64,000 bases of DNA from Caenorhabditis elegans (lineage: Eukaryota > Nematoda > Chromadorea > Rhabditida > Rhabditidae), in the NCBI RefSeq assembly GCF_000002985.6, contig NC_003280.10, positions 682,001 through 746,000 on the forward strand. Reading direction: 5' to 3'. Of the stretch, positions 12,360 through 58,847 are shown piece by piece; the stretch's first letter is position 1; each line of letters begins with the position of its first letter. The notes beneath the pieces were generated by a model, which saw only the letters and a list, made by a program, of their open reading frames with translations, searched no databases and was not told the DNA's origin. A program made the translations under genes and the position numbers.

Positions 12360-15300
12360 CGTGACGAGACCCATCGTGGTAAGACCCGTCGTGGTGAGAC
12401 CCATCGTGGTGAGACCCATCGTGGTGAGACCCATCGTGACGAGACCCATCGTGGTGAGACCCATCGTGACGAGACCCATCGTGGTGAGACCCATCGTGGT
12501 GAGACCCATCGTGGTGAGACCCATCGTGGTGAGACCCATCTTGACGAGACCCATCGTGGTGAGACCCATCGTGGTGATACCCATCGTGGTGAGACCCATC
12601 GCGGTGAGACCCATCGTGACGATACCTTTCGTGGTGAGACCCTTCGTGGTGAGACCCATCTTGACGAGACCCATCGTGGTGAGACCCATCGTGACGAGAC
12701 CCATCGTGGTGAGACCCATCGTGATGAGACCCATCGTGACGAGACCCATCGTGATGAGACCCATCGTGGTGAGACCCATCGTGGTGAGACCCATCGTGGT
12801 GAGACCCATCGTGACGATACCTTTCGTGGTGAGACCTTTCGTGGTGAGACCCATCGTGACGAGACCCATCGTGGTGAGACCCATCGTGATGAGACCCATC
12901 GTGGTGAGACCCATCGTGGTGAGACCCATCGTGGTGAGACCCATCGTGGTGAGACCCATCGTGGTGAGACCCATCGTGGTGAGACCCATCGTGGTGAGAC
13001 CCATCGCGGTGAGACCCATCGTGACGAAACCTTTCGTGGTGAGACCCATCGTGGTGAGACCCATCGCGGTGAGACCCATCGTGACGATACCCATCGTGGT
13101 GAGACCCATCGTGGTGAGACCCATCGTGGTGAGACCCACCGTGGTGAGACCCATCGTGGTGAGACCCATCGTGGTGAGACCCATCGTGGTGAGACCCATC
13201 GTGGTGAGACCCATCGTGGTGAGACCCATCGTGGTGAGACCCATCGCGGTGAGACCCATTGTGACGATACCCATCGTGGTGAGACCCGTCGTGCTGAGAC
13301 CCATCGTGGTGAGACCCATCGCGGTGAGACCCATCGTGACGAGACCCATCGTGACGATACCCATCGTGGTGAGACCCATCGTGGTGAGACCCATCGTGGT
13401 GAGACCCACCGTGGTGAGACCCATCGTGGTGAGACCCATCGTGACGAGACCCATCGTGGTGAGACCCATCGTGGTGATACCCATCGTGGTGAGACCCATC
13501 GCGGTGAGACCCATCGTGGTGAGACCCATCGTGGTGAGACCCATCGTGGTGAGACCCATCGTGGTGAGACCCATCGTGGTGAGACCCATCGTGGTGAGAC
13601 CCATCGTGGTGAGACCCATCGTGACGATACCCATCGTGGTGAGACCCGTCGTGCTGAGACCCATCGTGGTGAGACCCATCGCGGTGAGACCCATCGTGAC
13701 GAGACCCATCGTGGTGAGACCCATCGTGGTGAGACCCATCGTGGTGAGACCCACCGTGGTGAGACCCATCGTGGTGAGACCCATCGTGACGAGACCCATC
13801 GTGACGATACCTTTCGTGGTGAGACCCTTCGTGGTGAGACCCATCGTGACGAGACCCATCGTGGTGAGACCCATCGTGACGATACCTTTCGTGGTGAGAC
13901 CCTTCGTGGTGAGACCCATCGTGACGAGACCCATCGTGGTGAGACCCATCGTGATGAGACCCATCGTGGTGAGACCCATCGTGGTGAGACCCATCGTGGT
14001 GAGACCCATCGTGGTGAGACCCATCGTGGTGAGACCCATCGTGGTGAGACCCATCGTGGTGAGACCCTTCGCGGTGAGACCCGTTGTGATGATACCCAGC
14101 GTGGTGAGACCCGTCGTGCTGAGACCCATCGTGGTGAGACCCTTCGCGGTGAGACCCATCGTGACGAGTCCCATCGTGGTGAGACCCATCGTGGTGAGAC
14201 CCATCGTGGTGAGACCCACCGTGGTGAGACCCATCGTGGTGAGACCCATCGTGACGAGACCCATCGTGACGATACCTTTCGTGGTGAGACCCTTCGTGGT
14301 GAGACCCATCGTGACGAGACCCATCGTGGTGAGACCCATCGTGACGATACCTTTCGTGGTGAGACCCTTCGTGGTGAGACCCATCTTGACGAGACCCATC
14401 GTGGTGAGACCCATCGTGATGAGACCCATCGTGGTGAGACCCATCGTGGTGAGACCCATCGCGGTGAGACCCATCGTGATGAGACCCATCGTGGTGAGAC
14501 CCACCGTGGTGAGACCCATCGTGGTGAGACCCATCGCGGTGAGACCCATCGTGCTGAGACCTTTCGTGGTGAGACCCATCGTGCTGAGACCCATCGTGGT
14601 GAGACCAATCGTGGTGAGACCCATCGTGGTGAGACCCACCGTGGTGAGACCCATCGTGGTGAGACCAATCGTGGTGAGACCCATCGTGGTGAGACCCATC
14701 GTGGTGAGACCCATCGTGGTGACACCCATCGTGCTGAGACCCATCGTGACGAGACCCATCGTGGTGAGACCAATCGTGACGAGACCCATCGTGGTGAGAC
14801 CCATCGTGGTGAGACCCATCGTGGTGACACCAATCGTGGTGAGACCCATCGTGGTGAGACCTTTCGTGGTGAGACCCATCGTGGTGAGACCCATCGCGGT
14901 GAGACCCATCGTGGTGAGACCCATCGTGGTGAGACCCACCGTGGTGAGACCCATCGTGGTGAGACCCATCGCGGTGAGACCCATCGTGACGATACCTTTC
15001 GTGGTGAGACCCATCGTGGTGAGACCCATTGTGGTGAGACCCATCGTGGTGAGACCCATCGTGGTGAGACCCTTCGTGGTGAGACCCTTCGTGGTGAGAC
15101 CCATCGTGACGAGACCCATCGTGGTGAGACCCTTCGTGATGAGACCCATCGTGGTGAGACCCTTCGTGGTGAGACCCATCGTGGTGAGACCCTTCGTGGT
15201 GAGACCCATCGCGGTGAGACCCATCGTGACGATACCTTTCGTGGTGAGACCCTTCGTGGTGAGACCCATCTTGACGAGACCCATCGTGGTGAGACCCATC

Positions 15301-15822
15301 GTGATGAGACCCATCGTGGTGAGACCCATCGTGGTGAGACCCATCGCGGTGAGACCCATCGTGGTGAGACCCATCGTGGTGAGACCCACCGTGGTGAGAC
15401 CCATCGTGGTGAGACCCATCGTGACGAGACCCATCGTGACGATACCTTTCGTGGTGAGACCCTTCGTGGTGAGACCCTTCGTGACGAGACCCATCGTGGT
15501 GAGACCCATCGTGACGATACCTTTCGTGGTGAGACCCATCGTGATGAGACCCATCGTGGTGAGACCCTTCGTGGTGAGACCCATCGTGACGAGACCCATC
15601 GTGATGAGACCCATCGTGACGATACCCATCGTGGTGAGACCCTTCGTGGTGAGACCCATCTTGACGAGACCCATCGTGGTGAGACCCATCGTGATGAGAC
15701 CCACCGTGGTGAGACCCATCTTGACGAGACCCATCGTGGTGAGACCCATCGTGATGAGACCCATCGTGGTGAGACCCATCGTGATGAGACCCATCGTGGT
15801 GAGACCCATCGTGGTGAGACCC
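12360..15822 (+). repeat. 15-bp satellite, block 1
   Basis: About 230 head-to-tail copies of GTGGTGAGACCCATC with frequent GTGACGAGACC, TTCGTGG, CACCGTGG and GATACC variants. Because 15 is a multiple of three and the unit lacks stops, long frames stay open on both strands. None has a start context, splice sites or composition suggesting a protein. Confidence 0.97.
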
Positions 15823-15825
15823 ACG

Positions 15826-15899
15826 TCTGGAAAGCTCGAGAAAATTCTGGAATGTTCTAGAACCTTCTGGAAAATTCGAGAAAATTTAAAAATGTTCGT
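15826..15899. promoter_or_regulatory. Heat-shock-element array, copy 2
   Basis: Near-exact repeat of the leader at about 12289-12362, again with TTCTGGAATGTTCTAGAA, and again followed by GTGACGAGACCCATCGTGGT. It shows that leader and satellite were duplicated as one higher-order unit. Confidence 0.75.
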
Positions 15900-17093
15900 G
15901 ACGAGACCCATCGTGGTAAGACCCGTCGTGGTGAGACCCATCGTGGTGAGACCCATCGTGGTGAGACCCATCGTGACGAGACCCATCGTGGTGAGACCCA
16001 TCGTGACGAGACCCATCGTGGTGAGACCCATCGTGGTGAGACCCATCGTGGTGAGACCCACCGTGGTGAGACCCATCGTGACGAGACCCACCGTGGTGAG
16101 ACCCATCGTGACGAGACCCATCGTGGTGAGACCCACCGTGGTGAGACCCATCGTGGTGAGACCCACCGTGGTGAGACCCATCGTGACGAGACCCATCGTG
16201 GTGAGACCCACCGTGGTGAGACCCATCGTGGTGAGACCCATCGTGGTGAGACCCATCGTGACGAGACCCATCGTGCTGAGACCCATCGTGGTGAGACCCA
16301 TCGTGCTGAGACCCATCGTGGTGAGACCAATCGTGGTGAGACCCATCGTGGTGAGACCCATCGTGGTGAGACCCATCGTGGTGATACCAATCGTGGTGAG
16401 ACCCATCGTGGTGAGACCCATCGTGGTGAGACCCATCGTGGTGAGACCCATCGTGCTGATACCCATCGTGACGAGACCCATCGTGATGAGACCCATCGTG
16501 ACGAGACCCATCGTGGTGAGACCCATCGTGGTGAGACCCATCGTGACGAGACCCATCGTGGTGAGACCCACCGTGGTGAGACCCATCATGGTGAGACCCA
16601 TCGTGGTGAGACCCATCGTGACGAGACCCATCGTGGTGAGACCCACCGTGGTGAGACCCATCGTGACGATACCCATCGTGGTGAGACCCATCGTGGTGAG
16701 ACCCATCGTGGTGAGACCCACCGTGGTGAGACCCATCGTGGTGAGACCCATCGTGGTGAGACCCATCGTGGTGAGACCCATCGTGGTGAGACCCATCGTG
16801 GTGAGACCCATCGTGATGAGACCCATCGTGGTGAGACCCTTCGTGGTGAGACCCATCGTGGTGAGACCCATCGCGGTGAGACCCATCGTGACGATACCTT
16901 TCGTGGTGAGACCCATCGTGGTGAGACCCATTGTGGTGAGACCCATCGTGGTGAGACCCATCGTGGTGAGACCCTTCGTGGTGAGACCCTTCGTGGTGAG
17001 ACCCATCGTGACGAGACCCATCGTGACGAGACCCATCGTGGTGAGACCCATCGTGATGAGACCCATCGTGGTGAGACCCTTCGTGGTGAGACC
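15900..17093 (+). repeat. 15-bp satellite, block 2
   Basis: About 80 further copies of the same unit. The first units match those that open block 1, so block 2 begins as a copy of block 1 and then differs in variant order. One stray unit remains at about 17438-17460. Confidence 0.96.
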
Positions 17094-17570
17094 CAAATTT
17101 TTGGCGGGAAATTCAAATTTTCAGTGAAAAAAATTTTGGCGGGAAATTCAAATCAGTGAAAAAAAATTTTGGCGGGAAATTCAAATTTTCAGTGAAAAAG
17201 TTTTGGCGGGAAATTCAAATTTTCTGTGAGAAAAATTTTGGGGGAAATTCAAATTTTCAGTGAAAAAAATTTTGGCGGGAAATTCAAATTTTCAGTGAAA
17301 AACATTTTGGCGGGAATTTCAAATTTTCAGTGAAAAACATTTTGCCGGGAAATTCAAATTTCTGAGAAAAAATTTTTGGCGGGAAATTCAAATTTTCTGA
17401 GAAACTTTTTGTTAGCTTAAGTACCACCTGGAACTGGCGAGACCTATCGTGGTGAGACCCTTAAAAATATGGGCGGGAACTTCAAAATTTATGAGAAAAG
17501 AAATTTTAGCGGGAAATTCAAATTTTCTGAGGAAAACATTTGGCGGGAAATCCAAATTTTTGTTCTGGAA
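17094..17570 (+). repeat. TTTTGGCGGGAAATTCAAA tandem repeat
   Basis: About ten units of roughly 38-45 bp, each with TTTTGGCGGGAAATTCAAAT and a TTTTCAGTGAAAAA spacer. E2F-like TTTGGCGGGAAA is embedded in every unit, but no function is implied. Confidence 0.9.
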
Positions 17571-30300: not shown

Positions 30301-33300
30301 GGACCAATTTTTTCGCTCACTTTTCAGCTAAAAACCAATAATCTCTACTCGGCCAGTCAGGATCGATCTGTGAAGGTTAATAATTGGATTTTAAGCTGAA
30401 AATTAACATTTTCCACCGGAAAATTTGATTTTTCAGCTAAAAATGCACTAAAAATCTGGAAATTTGAGTTTTTCCAACTAAAAATCCGCGAAAAAATCCA
30501 ATTTTCCATTGAAATTCTCACAATTTCCACCCATTTTCAGCCCAAATCTCTTCATTCCAGATGTGGGATATCGACCAGCTCGGACTCGTCGACACAATGT
30601 ACGGACATCAGGACGGTGTCCAGCAGATTGGTGTACTGTCGAAACAGCGTGTGGCAACTGTTGGTGGAAGAGATCGTAGTGCGAGACTATGGAAAGTCGA
30701 GGATGAGAGTCAATTGGTACGCGGCGAGACGAAAATCTGCAAAAAAAAGCGCTGAAAAATGCAATTTTTTCAGGCTTTTTTGAGCTTTAAAATGAGCTTA
30801 AAACCATGTTTTAGCACTAAAAAATCAATTTCCAGATGTTCAGTGGACTTCAAAACTGTGTCAGTTTGGACTGCGTCGCAATGATCAACGAGGAGCACTT
30901 TGCCACCGGATCTGCTGATGGGTAGGTGTGATGCTACAGTACCCCCCAGGAGCTCGCGGAGCTTGGCTAGAGAACCATTGGAACTACTGTGCTCAGTTTC
31001 GGAGCAATGGAAAGTTCAAGAATTCTTTTCGCAGGAAAACTCTCTCTCACTCTGAGCATCTAAGAAGAAAGATCGGAAGCTCTGAGGAGATCTGAAGCTC
31101 ACAGCTCAAGCCCCTGTAAAGGGACGCTTTGCTATTTCTGGCAGCAGTGGCCTAATTTTCGCCGGCCACCTAGAAATTGCACCAGCGCGTCTTCCTGCCT
31201 CGAGAGAGAGATGACAGGAGCTCGTCGACTGAAAAGCCTCTAATTTGAGCACGATTGACCTACAAAAATATGCGGGCATTTTTTGCCCCCAAAAAAATAT
31301 GACGTCAGTTGAGAACTCTGCGCGTCTCTCTTCTCCCGCATTTTTTGTAGATCTACGTAGATCAAACCGACATGGGACATACTGACACCACGTGGCACCT
31401 TGAGCGTTCTAAAAAAAGAGCTCAAAAGTCTAAAATTTCGACTTTTTCGTTAAAAAGCTCGGAACTGCTCTAAAAAGAGCTACGAGCCACATGACCAGCA
31501 TGTCTCTGGTCTCCTGATAATATTTACTCAAACGAAAATACGTAATCATATTACCTGTACAGAGAGTGTAGATAGTTAGAGAGTGACAGACATCAGGGAC
31601 CCAAAGGGGCGGGGCGCGGAAGAGACGATTTGTGTCGATTTACGGAATGCTTGCTCACAACGAGAAAAATTCCGTAAATCGACATAAATCGTCTCTTCCC
31701 GCAGCGCCCCGCCCCTTTGGGTCCCTGATGTCTTTTGTCATTCTCTAACTGTCTACACACTCTCTGTATACAGGTAATAACGTTTTGTCCACCAAAAAGT
31801 GACAAACAAAGTGCTACGTCATTTCTGAACTATGTATGACTCATGCACGGTCTTTCCTTCTTTTTCTCCTTTTCGGGGAAGAAGCCCAGGAACATGTTCA
31901 CATTAGTTTTATGAGTACTTTTTTCCATTAAATTTATGGAATAGGGCGCCCAGCGCATTGTTTGATTGGTATCATATAGGCATGTCCACACTGCCTTTTT
32001 GGTAGTGCAAAAAAATTGGAAAAGCTTTAGACTCTTCAATTTTTTTTGTACAGAAAACACCAAGAGTTCTACACCACACAAATCCGCGATTACTGGAACC
32101 GAATATTCTGAGAATGCGTATTGTGCACAACATAATCGACGCGCAAAATATCTCGAAGCGAAAACTACTCTTTAAATGACTACTGTAGCGCCTGTGTGTC
32201 GATTTACGGACTCAATCTTCCTAACGGATTTTAAAAAAATTATTGATCTATAGAATTTTGAAGTTAAGCAAAAGAAACGATTTTTCAAAATTCTATAGAT
32301 CAATGATTTTTTTAAAAATCCGTTTGGAAGATTGAGCCCGTAAATCGACACACAGGCGCTACAGTAGTCGTTTAAAGAATTACTGTAGTTTTCGCTTCGA
32401 GATATTTTGCGCGTCAATTATGTTGTGCACAATACGCATTCTCAGAATTTTGTGTTCCCGTAATACGAGGTTCACTTCTTCAATTTATGCACAATTCCCC
32501 ATATACTCTACTTCTCACACCACTCGTCTGCCTCTCTCCCTCCGTCTCCTACCACCCCCTCCAGCTACTAGTGACACCCAATTATCCCCCGTCAAACACT
32601 ACGTTTCGGGTAGCGTGTTCACATGTGTTTTGTCTCCGATTTCTGTCTTCTCCCGGTTGTGTGTCCTGAATGAATCGGCTTTTCCCTACCTGTGTAAAAG
32701 GCTACGAAGTCGGTGTTTTTTTTTTCAATTAAAAATCGATTTTCATGCTCAAACTTGTGGAAAACTACGCTTTTCCCTCGTAGTGGCAGAATTTTGGTTT
32801 GATCTTTGAAAAATGCGGGAGAAGACACGGGGTTCTGGGCTTTCTCATTGAATTTTCGCGCTCCATTGACAATTGCCTGACGGGCAACGCGTGGAGAAGT
32901 AGTGTACTCCACACGGACAACAAACTTTAGTTTTAAACAACTAAAACGAGCCGCGACGCGACACGCAACGCTCCGTAAATCTACACAAAATCTCTCCGAC
33001 CCAGAATGGCCTAGTTTGGCAAACTCTGCCATTTCGATTTATGAGGGAAGTCAGAATTCCGTGTCCACACACACGTGGTGTCAGAATGTCTCCCATGACA
33101 CGGTTTGATCTACAAAAAATGCGGGAATTTAGACGCCGAGTTCTCGACTGATTCTTCACATAGCTAAGAACGTCTGACGTCACATTTTTTGAGCAAAAAA
33201 GTTGCCGCATTTTTTGTAGATCAATCCGCAAGGAGACTTTCATTTCACCACGTGATTTCCGTCCTAAAATTGGATTTTGGTATTGAGTTTCGACAGTGCA

Positions 33301-47900: not shown

Positions 47901-50065
47901 AATATTTATTGTAATTTCTGGTATTTTGGAATACAAAAATGAAAAATTTTATTGAAAATCTCATTTAAGAATTCTTTTTTCATTCACTTTTAAAGTTTTT
48001 TTCGAATATATTCTTCAAAAACTCGAGAAATTAGCAAAAATTGAGGCCTTGTTCAAAATTTTCCTTTTTTGGTCGATTTTCACGCTTTGAGCGAGGGAAC
48101 GTGCGCAAGTGAGAGGCGAGAGACGACGAGAGCGACTTGCTTGCGCATTTCACGCGCAGGAGGCCGTGGTAATCCTCTTAACTATCGGAAATTCAAAATT
48201 TCCGCATTTTTCCGTAAAATTCGGTGTTTGCGGACTTCTGGAACCACCGTAACCCTTTGGAAAATTGAAAATCAGAATATCCCGCAATTTTTCGTAGAAT
48301 TTGATGTTTGCGGTCTTCCGGAGCTACCGTAACCCAATCGAAAACGAAAATCGCAATTTTCCTATTTTTAACCGATTTTAGGCTTAAAATTATCGAAATT
48401 GGTGGTTTTTTAGCCAAATTCTCTCAAAAATCTTGAATTTTACCCCACAAATTTGAAAAAAAAATTTTTGTTCGCCAAAAAATGCTCAAATTTTCAGCTT
48501 CAACGCCTACGACACATCAGCCCAGAACAATGGTCCATCCCGTCCTCCATCGTCATTTTCGTCCAATCAGAATCCATTTGCCGATTCCATTTCACCAGAA
48601 GCTCCACAAGCTCAGCCAGTTGCAGCCGCCCGTCGCCAGAGCACAACCACGCCGACTGGAAGATTTGGTGGAATTGGAGCAATTACCGGAGCAGCCACGT
48701 TGCCCCATGCGATGACGTCACCTGTGGTACGGAATCGATGGACTTTCGGCCGCAAAATTTCTCGTAAAAATGGGCTCTTTTTGCTCAATTTGGAGCATTT
48801 TTAGCGGTTACTGTAGCTCTGGAGCTCGAAATTTGGATTTCTGCCAAATTTTGCAAGTTCCAAAGGTTACGGTAGCTCTGGAAGCCCGGAAAAAATTTTC
48901 CGCTCCAGAAGCTAGTTTTCATCAAATTTTACTAGAAAATGGCTCGAAATATTAATTTTCAAGATTTTTGAAATAAAAAAATCAATTTTTAGCAAAATTT
49001 TACAAGTCCCAGAGGTTACGGTAGCTCAAGAACTCTGCTCTCAGTGAAAAATTGGATTTCTGCGGAGAAAAACCCAGGAATTTTGAATTTTTCGGAATTT
49101 TCAAGTTTTTAAACACTAAAATTCGCGGTAATTTTGATTTTTCAACCCAATTTCATGAATTTCCAATCAAAGTCTCCACTTTTCAGATGGCTCACGACAT
49201 GTTCCACCGATCGGGAAGCATTCGATCTACGGCCTCAAGCGGATTTGGCGGCTCTCAGAAGAATCAACGAAAGATCATTGATCCGAGCAACTCTGACGAT
49301 CTACTTGCAGTTATTGATAGTCTGAAGTTGGAGCTTCAGGTTAAAGATTCGAGGATGAAGGATATGCAGGGCTATATGGATTTGTTGGTACGGTTTTGTG
49401 CTGGAAATTGGGGAGATTTTTGACTCGAAAATCATAAAAATCGGAGGTTTTTGACCGAAAAATCACAAAAATCAACAGTTTTTGACTCAAAAAACATGAA
49501 AATCTGATTTTCTTGACCCAAAAATCATAAAAATCGGAGGTTTTTAACTCGAAAAAACATGAAAATTTCCACATTTGAGGCCGAAAACCCATGAAAATCG
49601 TAGATTTTTGAATCAAAAATCGAGAAAATTCGGAGTTTTTTGACCCAAAAATCATAAAAATCGGATTTTTTGACCCTACAAATCACAATAATCGGAGGAT
49701 TTTGACTCAAAAAACATAAAAATTCATAGTTTTTCGTGGGAAAATACGAAAAATCACAAAAATCGGAGCTTTTTTATCCAAAAATCTCAAAAATTGATGG
49801 TTTTTACTCGAAAATCATAAAAATAGAAGGTTTTTGACCAAAAAACATAAAAATCTGAGGTTTTTTGACTCGAAAAACATGAAAATTCCAATATTTTCGT
49901 CGGAAAAATTGGAAAAATCATGAAAATTCCCGCATTTGAAGCCAAAAAATCGTGAAAAGTGCCAAAAAATCACTTTTTTTTCAGATTTCCCGTGTGATGG
50001 AACGAAATCCGGAACTGCTGGCCGCCCCCGCAACCAATCAGAAGCCCAGAATGCGATTCTTCTAA
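41996..50065 (+). CDS. rfip-1: Rab11 family-interacting protein (class I FIP)
   Basis: Seven exons (41996-42023, 42428-42581, 43511-43776, 44810-45113, 48498-48726, 49187-49387, 49985-50065) join in phase to 420 residues. Residues about 10-140 are a C2 domain (TAARGLYMKNKSSLDAYATV, GECRWDEVCEFKLSD, GRCELELENAKM). The middle is Ser-, Lys- and Pro-rich. The C-terminal about 45 residues are the coiled-coil Rab11-binding domain with the signature YMDLLISRVMERNPELL. These effectors bind Rab11 on recycling endosomes and direct membrane recycling. The C2 domain points to the class I/Rip11 group. The C. elegans name is from memory. The first exon is uncertain: just upstream of exon 2 the in-frame stretch PRKFKTITV also looks like a C2 first strand, but no acceptor with the right phase precedes it. 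Intron 4 hosts a 2.8-kb transposon. Confidence 0.9.
42045..42380. repeat. AAAAATCGATAATTT repeats in rfip-1 intron 1
   Basis: About fifteen copies of GAAAAATCGATAATTT followed near 42320 by inverted copies, so the array can fold on itself. Confidence 0.85.
42700..43190 (+). repeat. GTGTTTGCGGACTT tandem repeats, rfip-1 intron 2
   Basis: Direct units of about 100 bp continuing the family seen at 39460-39995, broken by a MITE at 43193 and resuming to about 43460. Confidence 0.9.
43193..43383. mobile_element. 191-bp MITE with TA target duplication
   Basis: Terminal inverted repeats GTCTGAAATCACCCCGCCAC followed by T7. TA flanks both sides (43191-43192 and 43384-43385), as in Tc1/mariner-type insertions. 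It interrupts a GTGTTTGCGGACTT repeat unit. Confidence 0.88.
43840..44770. repeat. Alternating inverted repeats in rfip-1 intron 3
   Basis: Units of CTACCGTAACCC alternate with GGGTTACGGTAG every 100-150 bp, so neighbouring units can pair. They end at the acceptor ATTTTTCAG at 44801-44809. Confidence 0.88.
45360..48168. mobile_element. 2.8-kb non-autonomous DNA transposon, 5-bp TSD
   Basis: The ends are CACGGCCTCCTGCGCGTGAA and its inverted copy, about 26 bp before divergence. GTAAT flanks both sides (45355-45359 and 48169-48173). Removing the element and one GTAAT restores the local repeat TACCGTAATCCTC, which matches sister units such as that at about 39824. No transposase frame is seen inside. 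Lies in rfip-1 intron 4. Confidence 0.92.
45884..47179. mobile_element. 1.3-kb foldback element nested in the transposon
   Basis: Arms of about 600 bp begin CTAGGGAACCGTCACAAGGT and mirror each other almost perfectly around a loop near 46480-46590. TAA lies on both outer edges (45881-45883 and 47180-47182), consistent with a 3-bp target duplication. No coding capacity. Confidence 0.9.
49424..49984 (+). repeat. AAAATCATAAAAATCGGAGG repeats in rfip-1 intron 6
   Basis: Diverged units TTTTTGACTCGAAAATCATA fill the intron up to TTTTTTTCAG at 49984. Confidence 0.8.
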
Positions 50066-51006
50066 TTTTTTCCATATTTGTTCGATTTTTTTTTCCAAAT
50101 TCTCTTTGCCCCCCGAAACTCATTCCTCCAGCAGCTGACTTTACTGTGTACAAAATGTATTTTTTCGAAAAAAAACTTTTTTTTCTCATTTTCTGAGCCA
50201 AAGACCCCCCCCCCCCTCTTCATGTATCTTCCAATATCGATTTTTTTTTAAATCTGGTCACTTTTTTCTATTTTTCGCTAGATTTAGACCTTTACCCCCC
50301 ATTCCGACAAACGTGTAGAATTCCCAATTTGACCCCAGTTACCCCCTCCCAGTAATTTTTAAAATTTCCTGTGCAACTATCCTTATCAATCATCTACTTA
50401 TCACTAAAGCTCTGTGTCAAATTACGTTTTTTTAATTGATTTTTGCACTGATTTTCTGGCAAAATTTCGAATTTCGACTTTTTACACTAAGAATTTCGAA
50501 TTTTTAATGTAAAATTTGAATTCAGCGGGTCGAGTTACACATTGTGGCACTTTTTTCCAGCGTCGCAGATCAAAAATTGAAGTTTTGGGGTACTGTAGCA
50601 CCAGGAGTACGCAAACACCGACTACAGTACCCCAAAACACCCGATTTTACGACATTGGCGAATTTCGAGCTGAAAATTGATTTCACTGGGTAAAATGGGG
50701 TGCTGAGTTCGAAAATTGTATTGAAAATTTCTGAAAATTTTATTTGAAAATCCGAAATTTTGAGATTTTCCAAAAAATTTATTTTTTTGAAATGTTTTTT
50801 TAAAATGAAATCCTAAATTTTATTAAGTTTTTGAGAGCCCCTGGGAAGCAAAATTTGTATCTAAAAAATCTGCATTAATTTGCATTAAATAAAAAATCAG
50901 CAAAAATTAATTTTGCATAAAAAGCTTCTTTTCAAACCTCTGAAAAAAATTTTTCGTCTAAAATTTCAATTTTTCAGTGCAAAATTCGAGTTCAGCGCTT
51001 TATAAT
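50066..51006. other. 3' flank of rfip-1, no gene seen
   Basis: Contains a C10 run at about 50207, a diverged GTACTGTAGCACCAGGAGTACGCA unit at 50590 and otherwise AT-rich unique sequence. Confidence 0.55.
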
Positions 51007-51202
51007 ATTACGGGAACAATAAATCATGAGAATGCGTACTTGGTGCATTTTATTTGACGCGCGATATCTCTTAGCGAAAACTACAGTAAGAGCTTAAATA
51101 TCTATTGTTATTTGAGGTCTTACTGTAGTTTTCGCTAAGAGATATCGCGCGTCAAATAAAATGCACCAAGTACGCATTCTCATGATTAATTGTTCCCGTA
51201 AT
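51007..51202. mobile_element. Palindromic MITE, ATTACGGGAACA family
   Basis: Left ATTACGGGAACAATAAATCA and right TTAATTGTTCCCGTAAT mirror each other, with GCGAAAACTACAGTAAGAGC paired in the arms. Same family as 32090-32464. Confidence 0.9.
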
Positions 51203-51391
51203 ACGGCTATTGAGTTTTTTTTGAATTCCTAATTCAAAAATTTGGGTTACTGTATCCTCAAAAGTCCGCAAACACCGACTACAGTACCTAAAAAAACACC
51301 CGATCTTACGACATTCGCGAATTTCCAGAAAACTTAAATTCCATAGTCTTTTCTATTTTTTTTGAATAAATTCAGTTTTTGTTTTGAGCAG

Positions 51392-51603
51392 GGAACCTTT
51401 GGCAGTCGTCTCCCCTGGATCAACCAAACGACATGATGCCCATCAACAAGTCGAGTCGATCGGAAGTCAACTCATTTGCACCCACAAACACAGATTCTGA
51501 TGTTCCAGTTCCAGCTCTTCAGCACCGGATGCTCTTGTTTATCACGCCAATTGCACAGACAACTCCAAGTTCAGCTACTGATGCTCCAGACACTTGCTTC
51601 TGA
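51392..51603 (+). pseudogene. Orphan terminal exon, tail-like, copy 1
   Basis: After an acceptor TTTTGAGCAG, a frame of about 70 residues runs to TGA: NLWQSSPLD..., MPINKSSRSEVNSFAPTNT. It is homologous to 52352-52572 (NLWILS..., PINNPRRSELIPFAPTNT). No convincing upstream exon is found. I do not recognise the family. It may be the Ser/Pro/Thr-rich cytoplasmic tail of a lost or decayed membrane protein. Confidence 0.5.
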
Positions 51604-52351
51604 AATCCTTAGGCAACTACTAGTCATGAAGCTTCAGCTCCACTTCTGAAGTCACTTGCTAAAAACTCAGGATCCTGTTGCTTCCTACGTCGTGATCTGC
51701 TGCTGCTCCAGAGAAAAAATATTTTATTGAAGTGTTTAACCTGTTTTAATTCGGAATAAATATATTTTGTTCACTTGAAAAGTTGAAGCTTAGTTGAAAT
51801 TTCCAGTTGGAAATGAATAATTTCTGAGATCGTGGAATTTGGATACTGGAGCGCTCGAAACTGAATCATAATTTTTCAGATTTCCGAATTCATAAAGTTT
51901 AGAAAGTTTTTTTATACGTGAAATAAATATAAATATAGAATAAAATATAAAAACGAAATATAAATCTCACGTTTCAAGTTTGTAAATCCAACTCACTTTT
52001 AAAGATTTGGAAGTTACGTAATTTTCTGAAAACTTCTAGGATTGATTTGATGCAATTCATCAAGTTTTTGTTGGTCTTTGAAAGTGAGTTTTATTTGTGA
52101 TAATGATTTTAAATATTTTATTTTCAGATACTATACTATCAATTTACTTATCGCTTGCCAAGAACATTGTGTCAGACGAATTATTATAATTATTGTTACT
52201 ATGTTGGAGATATCAAGCTGGAATAATCATTTTATTATTTGTCAAAAACATTAAGTCTGACGGAATATTTGATGCGAGGAAACTGAAATCAATAAAATCT
52301 GTAAGTTTATAAGATTGAATTTTTTGAAATGAAAATTGATTTTTTGTGCAG

Positions 52352-52572
52352 GGAATCTTTGGATCCTATCAACTAATCGGCATCCCATCAACAATCCAAG
52401 ACGATCGGAGCTGATTCCCTTTGCACCAACAAACACAGTATATGATGATTCAGTGCAAGGTCTTCAGCACTTTCTACAGCATGATTCAGATGCTCTCGTT
52501 TATCAATCCATGTGCACAGCCCGTTCCAGTACATCTGATACTTCTGGCCCGGAGTTTCGTGAAGTTCAGTAG
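52352..52572 (+). pseudogene. Orphan terminal exon, tail-like, copy 2
   Basis: After TTTGTGCAG a frame of about 73 residues runs to TAG. It shares PIN..RRSE...FAPTNT and a similar Gln/His/Ser-rich end with copy 1. An upstream donor-bearing stretch (ending AAATCT/GTAAGT at 52301) could be an exon, but the phase does not fit. The two copies lie convergent with the WSN-Lon gene. Confidence 0.45.
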
Positions 52573-52649
52573 ATCATTTTAGTTTTTTTTATAATTAAAA
52601 ATTATTTTTCCAAAGCAAAGATTTCATTAGCCATATCTTTTCAAAAGTT

Positions 52650-55600
52650 CTATTCGTCTCGGGCACGAATCTTGTCAACGGTTTCCGACAAACTGCTGAC
52701 AGTGATGATCCGTACTTCATTCTTCAAAAACTCTGGAACTTCTTCTAAGTTTCCAAGTGGGATTACTGCAGTCTTGTGCATGTTCCATGCCAACGCCACC
52801 TTCTCTTTGATAGATCCCACCTGAAAATAGGCTTCTATTGTATTAGAATTTGAAACGTTTGGAAAAATGTGCTCAATTTTGGAAAGAATTTTGAATACAA
52901 CATAATGGTTGGTGTTTTCATGAAAATCAAAAACGTACCATTTCCACTTTGCCTCCTGTTCCAAGTGACCCTGTCACAAGAATGTCGTGCGGCATAGACC
53001 ATCCTTTCACAGCGAAAATCACAGAGAGTGCAGTGGCCAGCTCCCCGCTCGATCCTCTCAAACGCGATTCGGTCACGTATCTTATCGATATGAAGAGTGG
53101 AACGAGTGGATCGCCAGCACGGCGAATGAAGTGCTGAGCGGCGCCGTAAGCGTGTTGCATACAAATGGACATTCCAGGTGACAGGTTGCCAATGGGGTGA
53201 AGCTCGTCCTTTGTCGCCGGCGAAAATTCGCACTCTGAAACATAAATTATATATAATAGTTCGGAAAATAAGTTCTGAAGTATTCTTTCATTTCAAGATT
53301 TTCTTCAAATTTTTTGCGGGTGGCTTATAAATTCTAGTCAGCTTCTTGGTAAATTAATTTGGAAATATTATGAAACTTTTTGAAATTTTGAAAAATTTTT
53401 ATATTCTTCTTTTCGGTTAGGCTTTTGAGTTTTGATATTAACTTCTAAATCAATTAAGATATTAATGTCGAATCGTACTTCTAATGAACAATGATATTTT
53501 TCTTGTAAATCAAAGCCGAAAAGAGAAGCGTACAAATTAAATTGAAAATTTTCAAATTCAATGTTTTTTTCTTGAAATATATTAATAGACTTTATAACTA
53601 TTTCGGTAATTTCCAGACGTAGTTGATAGTTTTTCTTGATAAAAATTTAGAATGCTATGGAAAACACTGTTGATTATAAAAACTAAAGATAATAAAAACT
53701 ATTTTGTAGGCTGACAACATAAGTACTTTTTTGGAAATGAGAAGCTTGAGACTCACCAATCAATAACGGCGAAGCTACCCTGCCCTCCACGATGCCATGC
53801 TCGTCCTTGTAATGTTTGATCATCACTCCATTCACAACACAGCTTCCACTACTCAGAGCTTGTGGTGGGTTATCTGCAAATGAATCAATATCTATTATAC
53901 AACATTTAAACTTGAATTTGAAATTTTCCACAAACAAGTATTTTCTTGACAATAATCATGGGGTGCCATTCGAAAAAATTTCAAATTTTCGTAGATTAGA
54001 AAAAATGGGTTGAACCTTCTAAATCCCTTTTTGTTTTAATTTGAGACTTACGAAGAAAATATGCATGTTCATTTGAAAGAAAAACTATAAAAAATCACTT
54101 ACCATTATTTTTCTGCCGCTGTTTCTTGTGCCATTTGAGACCAAAGAAAATGAGAGCAGCCAGAAGAATCAGAAGAATAACACCAATAGCAATGAATGGC
54201 CACAGGGTGATGCTGAAAATTTGAAAATTTTTGAGAAACGGAAACTAAAACTCACGATGATTCGGGGTTCTTCAACTGAGCCAGAGTCTTGCCATATTCA
54301 GTAAATGAAGATTCCAGTGCTTGCAGAAACTTGGCAGAACTATCGAAAGCAGCAGAATACACGGCAGTATCAAAGATCTGGAGATGTCGAAAAAGTTTCA
54401 GGAGATCATCGAGTTGAGCTTTGGTTAATCCGGATGCTGCTCTTCTTGTTCTTGATGGTAGACGAATCTTCAATATTTCCACGGAACCGATGATAGCAGA
54501 CAGGTTCATGCTGACACCTTTGACACTTTTAACAGCTTGGAAAATTTCAGAATAGTCCGACAATTTGGTGGAATTTACTGGCTTCACAGTCTTCATAAAG
54601 GTTCCAGCTTCCTTCTTGATCCTATTCAACTCGCTCTCCAAACCATACAGTGATTTCAAGTTCTTGGCATCTTCAGGATCCACATTCTTCATCTCCACCT
54701 TAATCCCAGCAATCAAAACTTTCAGAGGTTTCAAATCAACTTTCTGGCTAGCCATCTGCTCCATAATCGTGATTCCACGCGTCGCCATTCCAACCACTTG
54801 TGAATCCTTGGCAATGCTGGCGAAAGATTCAGTTTTCGTGTTCTCCGAGTTCTCGATCCCTTCGATATAGCCACTGAGCTCCGCTAACTTCTCCTTGATA
54901 GACGGCAAACTAGCTATGAGAATTGGCAGCCCAACTTTCTTTGGATAACTGTCTCTACGTGCTCTGATGACATCAATCACTGGCTTGATTTTATTCAAAA
55001 AGGTCAAGTCATTTCTGAATTTCGAGAACTGTTCAACAAATTCTTGAAGCTGTTTAAAATTGTTTTCAAGGGCTTACACAGTCTTTAATAAAGTCCCCGT
55101 GCTAAGAGCATCAATTGATTCTTTTTCTTCTGATATAATCGAACGAATATCTTTTAATGCGTGACTCTCGTTAAATAGTTTTGGGAGTTCATCATCCGAA
55201 ACGGTGAGCATTTTTGATATGTCACCTATTTTTTGTTGGTAAGGTTCGGAATGAAGAGCCTTTGAGAGTTCAACTAATTTCTCACTAGCAAGAAGCTTCG
55301 ACGAAAGATGACCCATGTTTTTGAAAAGTTGTTCTAAAATTTTGAGGGAAGGAAGCTTACTAGAATCGATGAGAAATGGGATGCCCTTCACTGTCCCGAC
55401 GAATGGTTTGATGAAATCAGCAAGATTCACAAATTTCATAATTTCCGGATGTACTTCTGACAATTCGGTGAGAATTGTAGCCTCACCAGATTGAAATGAC
55501 TTATCAACGTTTTCTGCTTTGTTAGCCAATGTTTTCAATTGATTCAGAGCTTTTCCCAGATTGTCAGCTTGTCCAGCAACTGTCTCATTCACCCAACCAG

Positions 55601-56666
55601 TAAACAAGTCAGTGAAAATCATTGAAATATCTGATATTCCTTTAGGAAATCCCGCGAGGAATTTGGAATCAGGGATAGGAAGCTGACGAGTTACGAAGAG
55701 ATTATAAAGAGTTTCGATAACATGTAGATTGGTTTTCAAGTCTTCTGCTAAAGAACTCAAACTATCAAGATTCTTCTGAACAGCTTCTAGATTAGATTTA
55801 TCAACTGTAACGTTCTGAAACTTTTTGAGAAAACCACGAGATTTTTCCAGCATCGGATAAGCTTTATCTTTGCCTCTGAGCAGTTTGAATTTGGATAACG
55901 ACTCGAATAACTTGTGCTTAAATGTTGTGCACTCGGTGATTGCTGTTATAATCCGTTCAAGGTTGGTTTTATCTGGTTTCTCACTGAAAGTGTCCATTTT
56001 GCTCAGCACTGAATTCAAATCCTCTTCGAAATTTGACTCCAGCTTGTCCCATTCAAGGTTACTCTCCTTCAAACCCTTCAAATCTGTCAAATAACGATCA
56101 TTTTCAAGGATGATAACAGATGGATCAATCTTCGATAGCTTCTCCTGATCTGATACAAACGTGCGCAGCTGTTTCTCAACTTCACCAACATTCTTGTCTA
56201 ATTTTAGATCATTAATCCCTTCAACAATTTTGGATAACTTGTCAGTATTGATTGCAGATATCTGAGTGGGAGTCAGAGTTCCAAAATGAAGTAATTCAGG
56301 AATAAGATCATCTGATTTAATAGATCCATTGGATAATCCATGTTGAATATATATTCCATTTATAACTCGAGATATCATTTGCATTTGAATAAGCGAGGAT
56401 TTGAACTCTTCTGAAAAATATCCAGTTGCATTAATATTATTATTGCTTATACCATCTTCGCCAAGATTCGGAACAAATGGAGCACCGTGTATAGTATTCC
56501 AAAGTATCAATGATACTATTGGAATTAATTCTGAAAATAAGAAAATAAGAAAATAAGAAACTGATATCGTTCTTGAAGATTCTCGAAGAGTTACAAAGTG
56601 TAATATTTTCTGAAAACTCCTATTATAACTGAAACGCGCAGAAAAGTTAATTATCAACTCACTCAT
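52650..56666 (-). CDS. WSN-domain membrane protein with cytosolic Lon-type (S16) peptidase domain
   Basis: Seven minus-strand exons (56666-56663, 56530-55078, 55014-54256, 54212-54103, 53873-53757, 53234-52939, 52820-52650) join in phase to 969 residues. Residues 1-20 are a signal peptide (MKLIPIVSLILWNTIHGAPF). A WSN domain follows at about 45-120 (SRVINGIYIQHGL, LIPELLHFGTL). The ectodomain to about 738 is helical and Lys/Glu/Leu-rich. One helix spans about 742-763 (LWPFIAIGVILLILLAALIF), then a basic HKKQRQK stop. Residues about 780-969 match the Lon proteolytic domain: VTESRLRGSSGELATAL, DILVTGSLGTGG, VGSIKEKVALA, TAVIPLGNLEEVPEFL. Ser877 and Lys920 align without gaps with Ser679 and Lys722 of E. 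coli Lon, 43 apart in both. No AAA+ domain is present. Topology and activity are inferred. An in-frame 63-bp intron (55015-55077) is protein-like. Confidence 0.85.
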
Positions 56667-56897
56667 TTTCTTTGGAGGAACTATTTCAAAGTCTTGCAAG
56701 CTTCTGATGGTTTGGAACTTTCAAAAGATAGGAAAAGTCGCGAAATGATTCAAAAATTGATTAAATTTAGTTTTTTTTTAATTAGACGCAGAGTTTTAAA
56801 TGGGTTCATCTGAATATTCTTATTTCTGAGATACTAATCTCATTTGAAATTTTTGAGTGAAAATATCTGCTCCTAAAAATTCTCAATTTGTATTCAT

Positions 56898-57018
56898 ATG
56901 CCGCGAAAAAGGCGAAAAGGCATAAGAGCTTCCGGCTGTAAATTTAGAACTGCATTCAGATACGCCAATCTTTCCCGCGAGCTTCAAAATCCTTACAAGC
57001 TCCGTTTTAAACACCCAG
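56898..57018 (+). CDS. Possible first exon, basic N-terminus, unknown
   Basis: ATG at 56898 opens about 40 residues (MPRKRRKGIRASGCKFRTAF and on) ending at a good donor CCCAG/GTAGGT. No downstream exon could be joined with confidence. It may be a remnant. Low support. Confidence 0.2.
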
Positions 57019-57564
57019 GTAGGTATCGAGAAACTACATAGATTGGCATACCAAAAATAGATTGGAATAGATTGGTTTCTTGTAGATGTATGACAGATTG
57101 CAGTCTTCAAACATTTTCAAAATTCATTTTTGCATTGACAACGCGTGAAAACAAAACTGTTTTATTCAAATAAGCCCCACACCGAGTTCGAATTGAAGCA
57201 AATTAGAAATCACAGCACACCAAGTCAACGCTGTCGAGGCTGGTGTCCTCGAAGCTTGAGATGGTTCAATTTGAACATTGATTCCAAAGGCGATTTGCTC
57301 CTTTGCCAGCCCTGCTCATTTCTGATCGATTCTGTAACAGTTCTCTGGTTATTGTAAAAACAAACAAGACTATTTTTTACATGTTTCACCCGAATCCTAC
57401 GGATCAGAAAATTTAGAAGAACAGCCGCAGCACCATCGAAGGTTTTTGTAAAAATCAGTCCGAAACTCGAAATGTTCATAATCATTGGCCCGCCAGCTTT
57501 CGGTCTCCAGCGTGGCGAGACCCACATAATAGCATAATAGACAATAACACAGAAACATCAATAT
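57019..57564. other. No supported gene
   Basis: Open frames here are short with no recognised family. It is the 3' flank of the DUF3557-like gene. Confidence 0.5.
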
Positions 57565-58847
57565 TTATTTTGACATCATAAAATAGTTTTCGAATAGTGT
57601 GTATAGAATAGGTTCTCTGGCAACCGAAATCGAAACGGAAAAACGAGTATCATCATTTCTCTCAGCTTCAGCGGAAATGGTGGTAGTGTCATTGAGCCAG
57701 AAAGACATTTTATATGGAAACTCGTCACATCTTTTGTACTCCACTTCAACTTCATCATCTTCGCTTGCGTATTCATAACCATCAACAGCTGGCTCTTTTC
57801 CATTTGCAAGAAGATTGAAGGCTCCGAACAATCCAGCCACCAAATCGTTGTCCTCAGTGTAGAAGCAACACTCTTTGCCTTTATCTTTTTGGCACATGCT
57901 GTCAATCAAGCGGAGGCAGTCGTAAACTCCGACAGTGTCGATCTCCGCAAAGATTATACCATTGGGAAGAGAGGCGATGGATTGGAACAACTCTTGTGGA
58001 ACAAATGGAATGTTCAACACACACTGGTCTTTAAAATTTCTTGCTGATTGATGTGATCGATCAAATCCAGTGTGAAGACATCTCCCGAGATGGTAACTAC
58101 TGCAAGTGGGAGGCTGCTCGGATGAATGAATCGATCGAGAAGCGGATTATTCGGCGACCAGTCGGAGAGCATTCTAATCTTGAACTGTTCGAACGAAGGA
58201 GGAAGATCAATAATACGATTATCGTTTGGAATTGTCAGCCAGTCAACATTCATCGGCGGGCGCCTTCCTTCAAGCTGGCGGGTCGCGAGAACTTTCGGAG
58301 TTCCGTTGAGCTGAAAAATGTCTAGAATGGCAAAAAACTCAAAGAAACAATGAAACTTACATTGTTCTCTGCACCAAGTTGATATTCGACACCATCGACA
58401 GTAATTGTGTTAAGGTTCAAATCCAAGTCCTTTATAATCATAGTTTGAGCCTTCTCAACTTTCTCGAGGGATGGGCATATTGAAATGAGATCGAATCTGA
58501 AAACTTTGACCATTTTTAAAAGAAAATTATACGTTTTCGTATTCTTTCTTTAATCAACACGGGGGTGGGCGGCAATTGCCGTCCGGCAATTTTTTGCCGA
58601 CAAAATCGGCAAATTGTCGGCTTGCCAATTTGCCGGAACATGTCAATTTTGGCAATTTGCCGATTTGCCGCTCTCTCCTGAATAACACTCAGAATAAAAC
58701 AACAAAATTTGAGAAAAATTGCATTTTTTGCCAATTGTTGATTTTTTCTGAAAAAACCCTGAAAAATCCAAGTTCTCACCTTGTATTTGCGCTCAAGTTC
58801 TTTAAAACGCACGCCAGAGCTGGGTAAGTCATTGATTTTGGATCCAT
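57565..58847 (-). CDS. DUF3557-like nematode protein with a frame break
   Basis: Exons 58847-58780, 58496-58361 and 58310 onward join in phase. The N-terminus MTYPALACVLKNLSANTRFD then ISICPSLEKVEKAQ is typical of the nematode DUF3557 family, unknown in function and often found near F-box-like genes. The main exon reads VDWLTIPNDNRIIDLPPSFEQ and on to DLIDHINQQEILKTSV, where the frame closes at about 58014. The C-terminal half (from LNIPFVPQELFQ to the TAG at 57565) is in another frame. Either a 77-bp intron (58100-58024, GTAGTT...GACCAG) removes the join, giving 290 residues, or a GTGTGT run gained 2 bp and the gene is broken. The C-terminus is duplicated at 7085-7321. Confidence 0.7.
58556..58680. 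repeat. GCCGG-type repeat in intron 1 of the DUF3557-like gene
   Basis: GGGGGTGGGCGGCAATTGCC opens the element, followed by GGCAATTTGCCGATTTGCCG-like units. Same family as 1-470 and 35640-36260. Confidence 0.85.

Follow-up and report, generated by a model that had tools for sequence, protein, structure and literature searches.

A putative fusion of a WSN membrane protein with a Lon-like S16 domain on chromosome II of Caenorhabditis elegans

The WSN-Lon locus and its predicted protein

We analysed a window of 64 kilobases (kb) of Caenorhabditis elegans chromosome II (positions 682001-746000), which carries on its minus strand, from window position 56666 to 52650, a gene that reads as a WSN-type membrane protein, a cell-surface type specific to nematodes, followed by a Lon-like S16 domain, here called the WSN-Lon gene. 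Coordinates are those of the window. Relatives were searched for in the whole genome (100,286,401 bases in 7 contigs), and places in it are labelled by chromosome and kb, as in II:812k. The initial annotation had proposed a gene of seven exons and 969 amino acids (aa). This model was recovered exactly, on the sole proviso, not mentioned in that annotation, that an intron of 63 nucleotides (nt), 55077-55015, is taken out over an in-frame TAA. With that intron left in, the gene is one frame of 990 codons whose only in-frame TAA stands at codon 487. The 63-nt intron and the 229-nt junction intron between the two halves are both predicted from the DNA, and we infer with fair confidence that the WSN and Lon halves share a single mRNA. 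The features of the model are as follows.

56663..56666, minus strand: exon 1 (ATGA, start codon), with donor GTGAGTTG in a phase that fits exon 2
55078..56530, minus strand: exon 2, with the hydrophobic N-terminus, the WSN domain and the first part of the ectodomain
56214..56405, minus strand: WSN domain (PF02206), aa 44-107, by Pfam
55015..55077, minus strand: putative in-frame 63-nt intron, GTAAGCCC...AAATTCAG, holding the stop; the paralogues code here
55074..55076, minus strand: TAA, in frame when the 63-nt intron stays in
54256..55014, minus strand: exon 3, second part of the ectodomain
54103..54212, minus strand: exon 4, hydrophobic (transmembrane) segment and basic juxtamembrane stretch
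53874..54102, minus strand: junction intron, 229 nt, between the WSN-derived and Lon-derived halves, predicted from sequence
53757..53873, minus strand: exon 5, start of the S16 domain
52939..53234, minus strand: exon 6, S16 domain with the catalytic-type Ser
53047..53049, minus strand: Ser codon (Ser877 spliced, Ser898 unspliced)
52821..52938, minus strand: intron between the Ser and Lys exons, 118 nt, similar in 7 of 12 other Lon-like places
52650..52820, minus strand: exon 7, S16 domain with the catalytic-type Lys, and stop codon
52800..52802, minus strand: Lys codon (Lys920 spliced, Lys941 unspliced), read by hand and by alignment

The predicted protein opens with a hydrophobic N-terminus, evident by inspection; the label of signal peptide that it had been given stands to that extent, no dedicated signal-peptide prediction being behind it. 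The WSN domain was matched by Pfam with 81.1 bits (expectation value E 5.2e-23). Between this domain and the hydrophobic segment lie about 630 residues of helical ectodomain, an earlier estimate having been about 600. The hydrophobic segment, LWPFIAIGVILLILLAALIFFGL, is the only one, and it is followed by KWHKKQRQK, which by inspection agrees with the single membrane helix and basic stop described before. The exon that encodes it resembles the transmembrane exon of III:1968k, a WSN gene of chromosome III. The tail of the WSN-Lon protein would be the Lon-like domain if the junction is spliced; otherwise it would be NNGK and then a stop.

The presence of a Lon-like domain was upheld by a Pfam match to Lon_C (PF05362) at E 1.3e-6 and 28.5-31.5 bits, over a cut-off of 21.1 (28.5 bits in a long piece, 31.2 in the domain alone). 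The match runs over positions 109-200 of the 205 in the profile, the half that holds Ser and Lys, and the first half of the profile had no match in the WSN-Lon protein. As a single sequence run with phmmer against PDB sequences, the domain retrieved proteolytic-domain chains of LonB at E 2.3e-7 to 3.8e-7. A family profile built from eight C. elegans Lon-like relatives (alignment A1) and run against PDB sequences reached the LonB chains at E 2.6e-21, ATP-dependent protease La (1rr9) at 7e-17 and mitochondrial Lon chains at 5e-15 to 3e-14, followed by TTC1975 (6e-11) and then RadA and BrxL; CalpL was a weak match (E 0.0086). Further profile matches of the RadA and ChlI types were obtained. Judged by these profiles, the S16 similarity is more than chance. 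The RadA and ChlI types use the same fold without proteolysis. Because the fold also serves non-proteases, fold similarity alone is no proof of a protease.

The catalytic pair described in the initial annotation was found again: Ser877 and Lys920 are 43 residues apart, which is the Lon spacing, with a TG motif between them, and they are colinear with the LonB chains. The acid that lies three residues before the Ser (Asp in the LONP-2-type gene) is Arg in the WSN-Lon gene and in II:812k, a Lon-like gene described below, and the His-x-His strand (HVH in the LONP-2-type gene) is absent from the WSN-Lon protein. Lon-type S16 domains normally act together with an ATP-driven unfoldase, and this one had been called ATPase-free. 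Indeed, a Pfam scan of the whole model returned no AAA family up to E 1, and no Walker A motif was present in window 50000-58000.

Chimeric origin and the in-frame stop

By its DNA alignments, the gene is a chimera of a WSN gene and a Lon-like gene. Two segments of the window define the halves.

54131..56850, minus strand: DNA similar to the chromosome III WSN gene, by genome alignment
52666..53867, minus strand: segment bounding two stretches alignable to II:812k, by genome alignment

The first segment runs from about 180 nt upstream of the ATG to the transmembrane exon and has about 75% DNA identity to III:1968k. Within the second, 52666-53235 aligned at 82% and 53769-53867 at 72% to II:812k, which lies 78 kb away and encodes a low-complexity N-terminus and a Lon-like domain with no WSN match. 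A genome search with the junction DNA (53760-54110) returned only itself, and the flanks of II:812k (L049, L050) had no match to the window at E 1e-8. According to the coordinate lists, this gene is the only one of at least 66 WSN places with a Lon-like match within 10 kb; among the listed places, the next-nearest pair (II:2060k and II:2074k) is about 14 kb apart.

The two halves differ in their divergence from their relatives. Synonymous divergence (dS) was 0.385 for the WSN half against III:1968k and 0.92 for the Lon half against II:812k, the latter outside a tract of 167 nt (52873-53039, minus strand) that includes exon and intron, is identical to II:812k and has lower identity on both sides. 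This tract is likely the product of a recent gene conversion between the two loci. The age of the WSN duplication should be an upper limit for that of the chimera, barring a reset of this divergence by conversion; the dS of 0.385 suggests that the chimera is young and would have few orthologues, if any. For the Lon half compared with II:812k, again leaving out the converted tract, the ratio of non-synonymous to synonymous divergence (dN/dS) was 0.29. Against III:1968k it was 0.63 before the in-frame stop and 0.51 after it, and 0.58 over the whole exon. Both halves are under coding constraint.

The in-frame TAA forms part of the GTAAG donor of a consensus 63-nt intron, whose acceptor is TTCAG. 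In the III:1968k paralogue the matching stretch codes for protein and lacks both the donor and the acceptor. When nonsense substitutions were simulated elsewhere in the large exon and an in-frame GTRAG...TTCAG intron of 40-130 nt was sought across each stop, none of the 314 had such a rescue intron. An in-frame TAA is also present in the matched stretch of two close WSN paralogues, III:1710k and III:2246k, and neither stop is covered by a consensus rescue intron (0 of 2). Such rescue is therefore not common, and stops do occur in the WSN family. By eye, the stop of III:2246k (L041, position 2827) is about 22 codons upstream of the position of the stop in the window gene, and that of III:1710k (L039, position 1528) is near the N-terminus. 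The numbers of non-synonymous and synonymous changes on the branch of the WSN-Lon gene resemble those on the III:1968k branch, and the coding sequence past the stop has no sign of decay or of relaxed constraint. On the evidence of splice signals and substitutions, a real 63-nt intron is favoured over a dead gene. Introns of 30 or 51 nt over the stop were also considered and dropped, as the donor GTGTAA is poor and the 63-nt option reproduces the 969-aa numbering.

Two other observations concern the parental loci. Upstream of the chromosome III WSN gene there is a partial tandem copy of the first WSN exon (L038, 3445-3781). On the 3' side of the WSN-Lon gene, window 51366-51767 together with 52368-52510 forms an element with one other match in the genome, 5' of II:812k, at 78%; relative to the Lon half, the order is reversed from one locus to the other. 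The element also has a partial self-match in the window at 70%.

The Lon-like family and its conserved intron

Besides the LONP-1- and LONP-2-type genes, the Lon-like family of C. elegans occupies about 15 places. S16 matches on chromosome II are the WSN-Lon gene itself (II:734k), II:812k, II:2060k, II:7366k, II:7372k, II:9390k and II:11885k; others are IV:13164k, IV:13688k, V:11864k, V:20146k, V:20154k and I:3135k. II:11121k gave one weak S16 match, and I:2436k was found through its intron. These matches vary in strength, and the lists of WSN and Lon-like places are lower bounds. In alignment A1, for which the intron joins were assumed, the Ser is present in 7 of the 8 members and the Lys in 6, the WSN-Lon gene having both. 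Left out of A1 were II:7372k, IV:13164k, IV:13688k, I:3135k, I:2436k, V:20146k and II:11121k, either because the Ser/Lys exon was missing, broken or not found, or as near-duplicates, or as places outside the examined set. IV:13164k has a stop. At V:11864k and I:3135k the family boundary is without a GT donor, and these two places may be decayed. One A1 member matched SepM_fam_S16 (E 0.0044). II:7372k (L032) is a near-identical inverted copy of II:7366k (L030), about 5 kb off; the similarity ends inside the Ser exon, and no Lys exon was found in the DNA examined.

LONP-2 is the probable source of the family, since two S16 introns coincide in position and phase with introns of the LONP-2-type gene (III:12.11 Mb); the LONP-1-type gene is uninterrupted there. 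One intron is in phase 1 at the residue (Glu in the WSN-Lon protein) just ahead of the Cys with which exon 6 begins; the other is in phase 0 before the Lys loop. The first of these, placed by hand alignment, has a CAG acceptor in 7 of 9 members; the acceptor is changed in II:11885k and the intron is lost in II:812k.

Evidence on a motor is weak for the other members. A text scan for Walker A over 12 other Lon-like places gave only repeat-like matches (L017, L029 and L020), which were judged false, but the same scan caught the motor in one of three LONP control loci (L011, not L009 or L010), flanks of about 1.5 kb being too short. This weakness holds for 11 of the 12 places; at II:812k no Walker A was found in the 11 kb scanned. 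A genome search with PF00004, in which 19 of 92 candidates were scored, listed neither LONP locus and decides nothing.

The intron that separates the Ser exon from the Lys exon (118 nt, 52821-52938) is better conserved across much of the Lon-like family than the adjoining coding sequence. A blastn search with it matched 7 of the 12 other Lon-like places: II:812k, IV:13688k (E 2e-17), V:11864k (1e-7), V:20146k, V:20154k and I:3135k (1e-6 to 2e-5), and weakly II:7366k (0.033). There was no match at II:2060k, II:7372k, IV:13164k, II:11885k or II:9390k. Related introns are listed for L023, L027, L036, L033, L031, L035, L030 and L058. Identity was 94% to II:812k and 64-85% to five distant members; for five distant members, V:20146k excluded, the global alignments stood above 200 composition shuffles with z of 4.1 to 10.7. 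At conserved residues, fourfold sites agreed at about chance level (for example 3/13, 4/13 and 5/16). Fast protein change alone was therefore dropped as an explanation, the synonymous sites being saturated too.

We also searched the genome with a 3' intron motif drawn from the Lon-like family introns. When no more than 2 mismatches were allowed, 6 places were returned, of which 5 were in Lon-like genes (4 of them already known, and I:2436k new), so that a dispersed repeat is unsupported. With at most 3 mismatches there were 28 places, 7 of them Lon-like, compared with 20 for a reversed control; the window's own copy of the intron was absent from the 28. Rfam gave nothing at the gathering threshold for the intron, the one match, mir-287 on the opposite strand, being at chance level (17.8 bits vs 80, E 0.19). 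Folding of six introns gave z-scores of -2.1 to +1.1, and no shared fold was seen. The candidate explanations are a constrained element with a role in regulation or splicing, and gene conversion limited to the intron.

Elsewhere in the window, in a stretch of high G+C, a 15-nt unit (GAGACCCATCGTGGT) repeated about 315 times makes up a minisatellite at 12366-17095, several frames of which are open on both strands. Window 51006-51203 is an inverted repeat of 198 nt, 95% identical to its own reverse complement, with partial copies at 32380-32467.

Interpretation and comparison with known systems

The explanation that we favour, tentatively and at somewhat under an even chance, is that of a young chimeric C. 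elegans gene, in which a cytosolic S16 peptidase derived from LONP-2 would be carried on a type I WSN membrane protein. It builds on the domains and their order, the chimeric DNA, a model free of AAA+ and the constraint in both halves. A duplicate of a WSN gene like III:1968k, bringing along the upstream DNA, the hydrophobic N-terminus, the ectodomain and the transmembrane exon, would have landed in front of a duplicated Lon-like gene, the two becoming joined in frame by a new intron. By the topology expected of an N-terminal signal and one transmembrane segment, the S16 domain would be placed in the cytosol. There it could cut nearby flexible substrates, with no ATP-driven unfoldase in its own chain, and its activity might, speculatively, be set by clustering or by the state of the ectodomain. 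That the domain works as a Ser/Lys peptidase, with flexible substrates close to the membrane, is a prediction that we rate as about even. Germline expression may have been inherited from the WSN parent. The one hint found on expression of the WSN family, from a published WSN survey (PMC3534327), is of the fourth larval stage (L4) and the germline or sperm, and a germline or sperm setting is a better guess than immunity. In sum, the initial annotation of a WSN-Lon fusion was partly confirmed as an observation and partly supported as an interpretation; the fusion mRNA, the peptidase activity and its gating are plausible, and unproven.

Several points weigh against the favoured explanation. The 63-nt intron takes out sequence that is coding in the paralogues. 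The in-frame stops of III:1710k and III:2246k mean that decay is not rare in the WSN family. An Arg stands at -3 of the nucleophile, and HVH is missing. A domain free of a motor likely has access only to unfolded or flexible substrates. Finally, the frame that reads through the junction donor stops after NNGK, and the WSN gene could end there.

These points feed three other explanations. The fusion protein may be made and its Lon-like domain be a pseudo-enzyme, kept for binding or oligomerisation. The Arg in place of the acid and the lost histidines would fit this, and dyad loss does happen in the family, as two of the eight aligned members have lost the Lys and one of them the Ser too. However, Ser, Lys, TG and spacing are all kept both here and in the 70% paralogue despite a dS of about 0.9, and we regard a pseudo-enzyme as rather unlikely. 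We consider it improbable that two neighbouring genes occupy the locus, a WSN gene that would stop at the TGA immediately within the junction donor and, downstream of it, an independent Lon-like gene with a start of its own. Such an arrangement would agree with the short tail in which III:1968k ends when read without further splicing, with the unfused state of II:812k, with the absence of any WSN match on chromosome II from this gene to 1284k and with junction DNA that has no homologue elsewhere in the genome. It is opposed by a strong donor (GTAAGTGA) and acceptor (ATTTGCAG) of matching phases, the acceptor lying at the edge of the Lon homology; moreover, the first in-frame ATG of exon 5 has a short out-of-frame ATG just ahead of it, and no other 5' exon was recognised for the Lon half.

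A recently dead gene, with the TAA as a true nonsense mutation in the reference strain, appears quite unlikely. The TAA does sit in sequence that codes in paralogues, and damage is seen in relatives: the stops of the WSN genes III:1710k and III:2246k and of the Lon-like IV:13164k, and the Lys exon not seen at II:7372k. Yet an in-frame consensus intron spans this stop, as it does in none of the 314 simulated and neither of the two paralogue cases, there is no second stop in 990 codons, and constraint is not relaxed downstream.

To return to the membrane-tethered S16 peptidase that we favour, the WSN ectodomain might sense a surface partner, perhaps in the germline or on sperm, and switch the motor-free peptidase by a logic like that of CalpL, specific to C. 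elegans; this extension is unlikely. If the joined mRNA is real, the gene would be a new combination of domains, with a housekeeping protease module, minus its motor, on the tail of a single-pass surface protein. It would then offer, in a standard laboratory animal, a tractable case of the birth of a receptor-enzyme by gene fusion in one lineage, and would raise the question of how a Lon proteolytic domain that has no ATPase chooses its substrates. A wider finding is the expanded C. elegans Lon-like family, which probably traces to LONP-2. A literature search aimed at this family, mostly outside subscription journals, found nothing on it or on a WSN-Lon fusion.

Among known systems, the gene at III:12.11 Mb, which we take to be that of the peroxisomal LONP-2, shares with the WSN-Lon gene the S16 domain, the equally spaced Ser/Lys pair and the two introns of same position and phase. 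LONP-2 carries an AAA+ module; its gene has neither WSN domain nor membrane anchor, and similarity between the domains is low. II:812k is closer, with about 70% protein identity, the shared intron, the identical tract and the same dyad, but it differs in its low-complexity N-terminus, in having no WSN domain and in the absence of an intron before the ECE/ECD motif. On the other side, III:1968k has 62% identity over the first 486 residues and a similar transmembrane exon and upstream DNA, whereas its cytosolic tail is short as read (about 370 nt downstream examined) and no Lon-like match lies near III:1.97 Mb. The best solved relative by sequence is the LonB proteolytic domain (PDB 1z0e, presumably from A. 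fulgidus). LonB carries an AAA+ motor, and its acid near the Ser is replaced in WSN-Lon.

Two bacterial systems resemble the predicted protein in plan. CalpL (SAVED-Lon, of a type III CRISPR system) is a sensor fused to a Lon protease and activated by cA4-driven oligomerisation (PMC11417357). Unlike WSN-Lon, CalpL is bacterial, responds to the ligand cA4, has its Lon domain at the N-terminus and has no WSN ectodomain. SepM is of the S16 type, with a PDZ domain and no AAA+ module. It is described as an extracellular membrane-bound protease (PMC4615949). In bacterial S16 proteases of the SepM/YlbL type the protease faces the outside, whereas that of WSN-Lon would face the cytosol.

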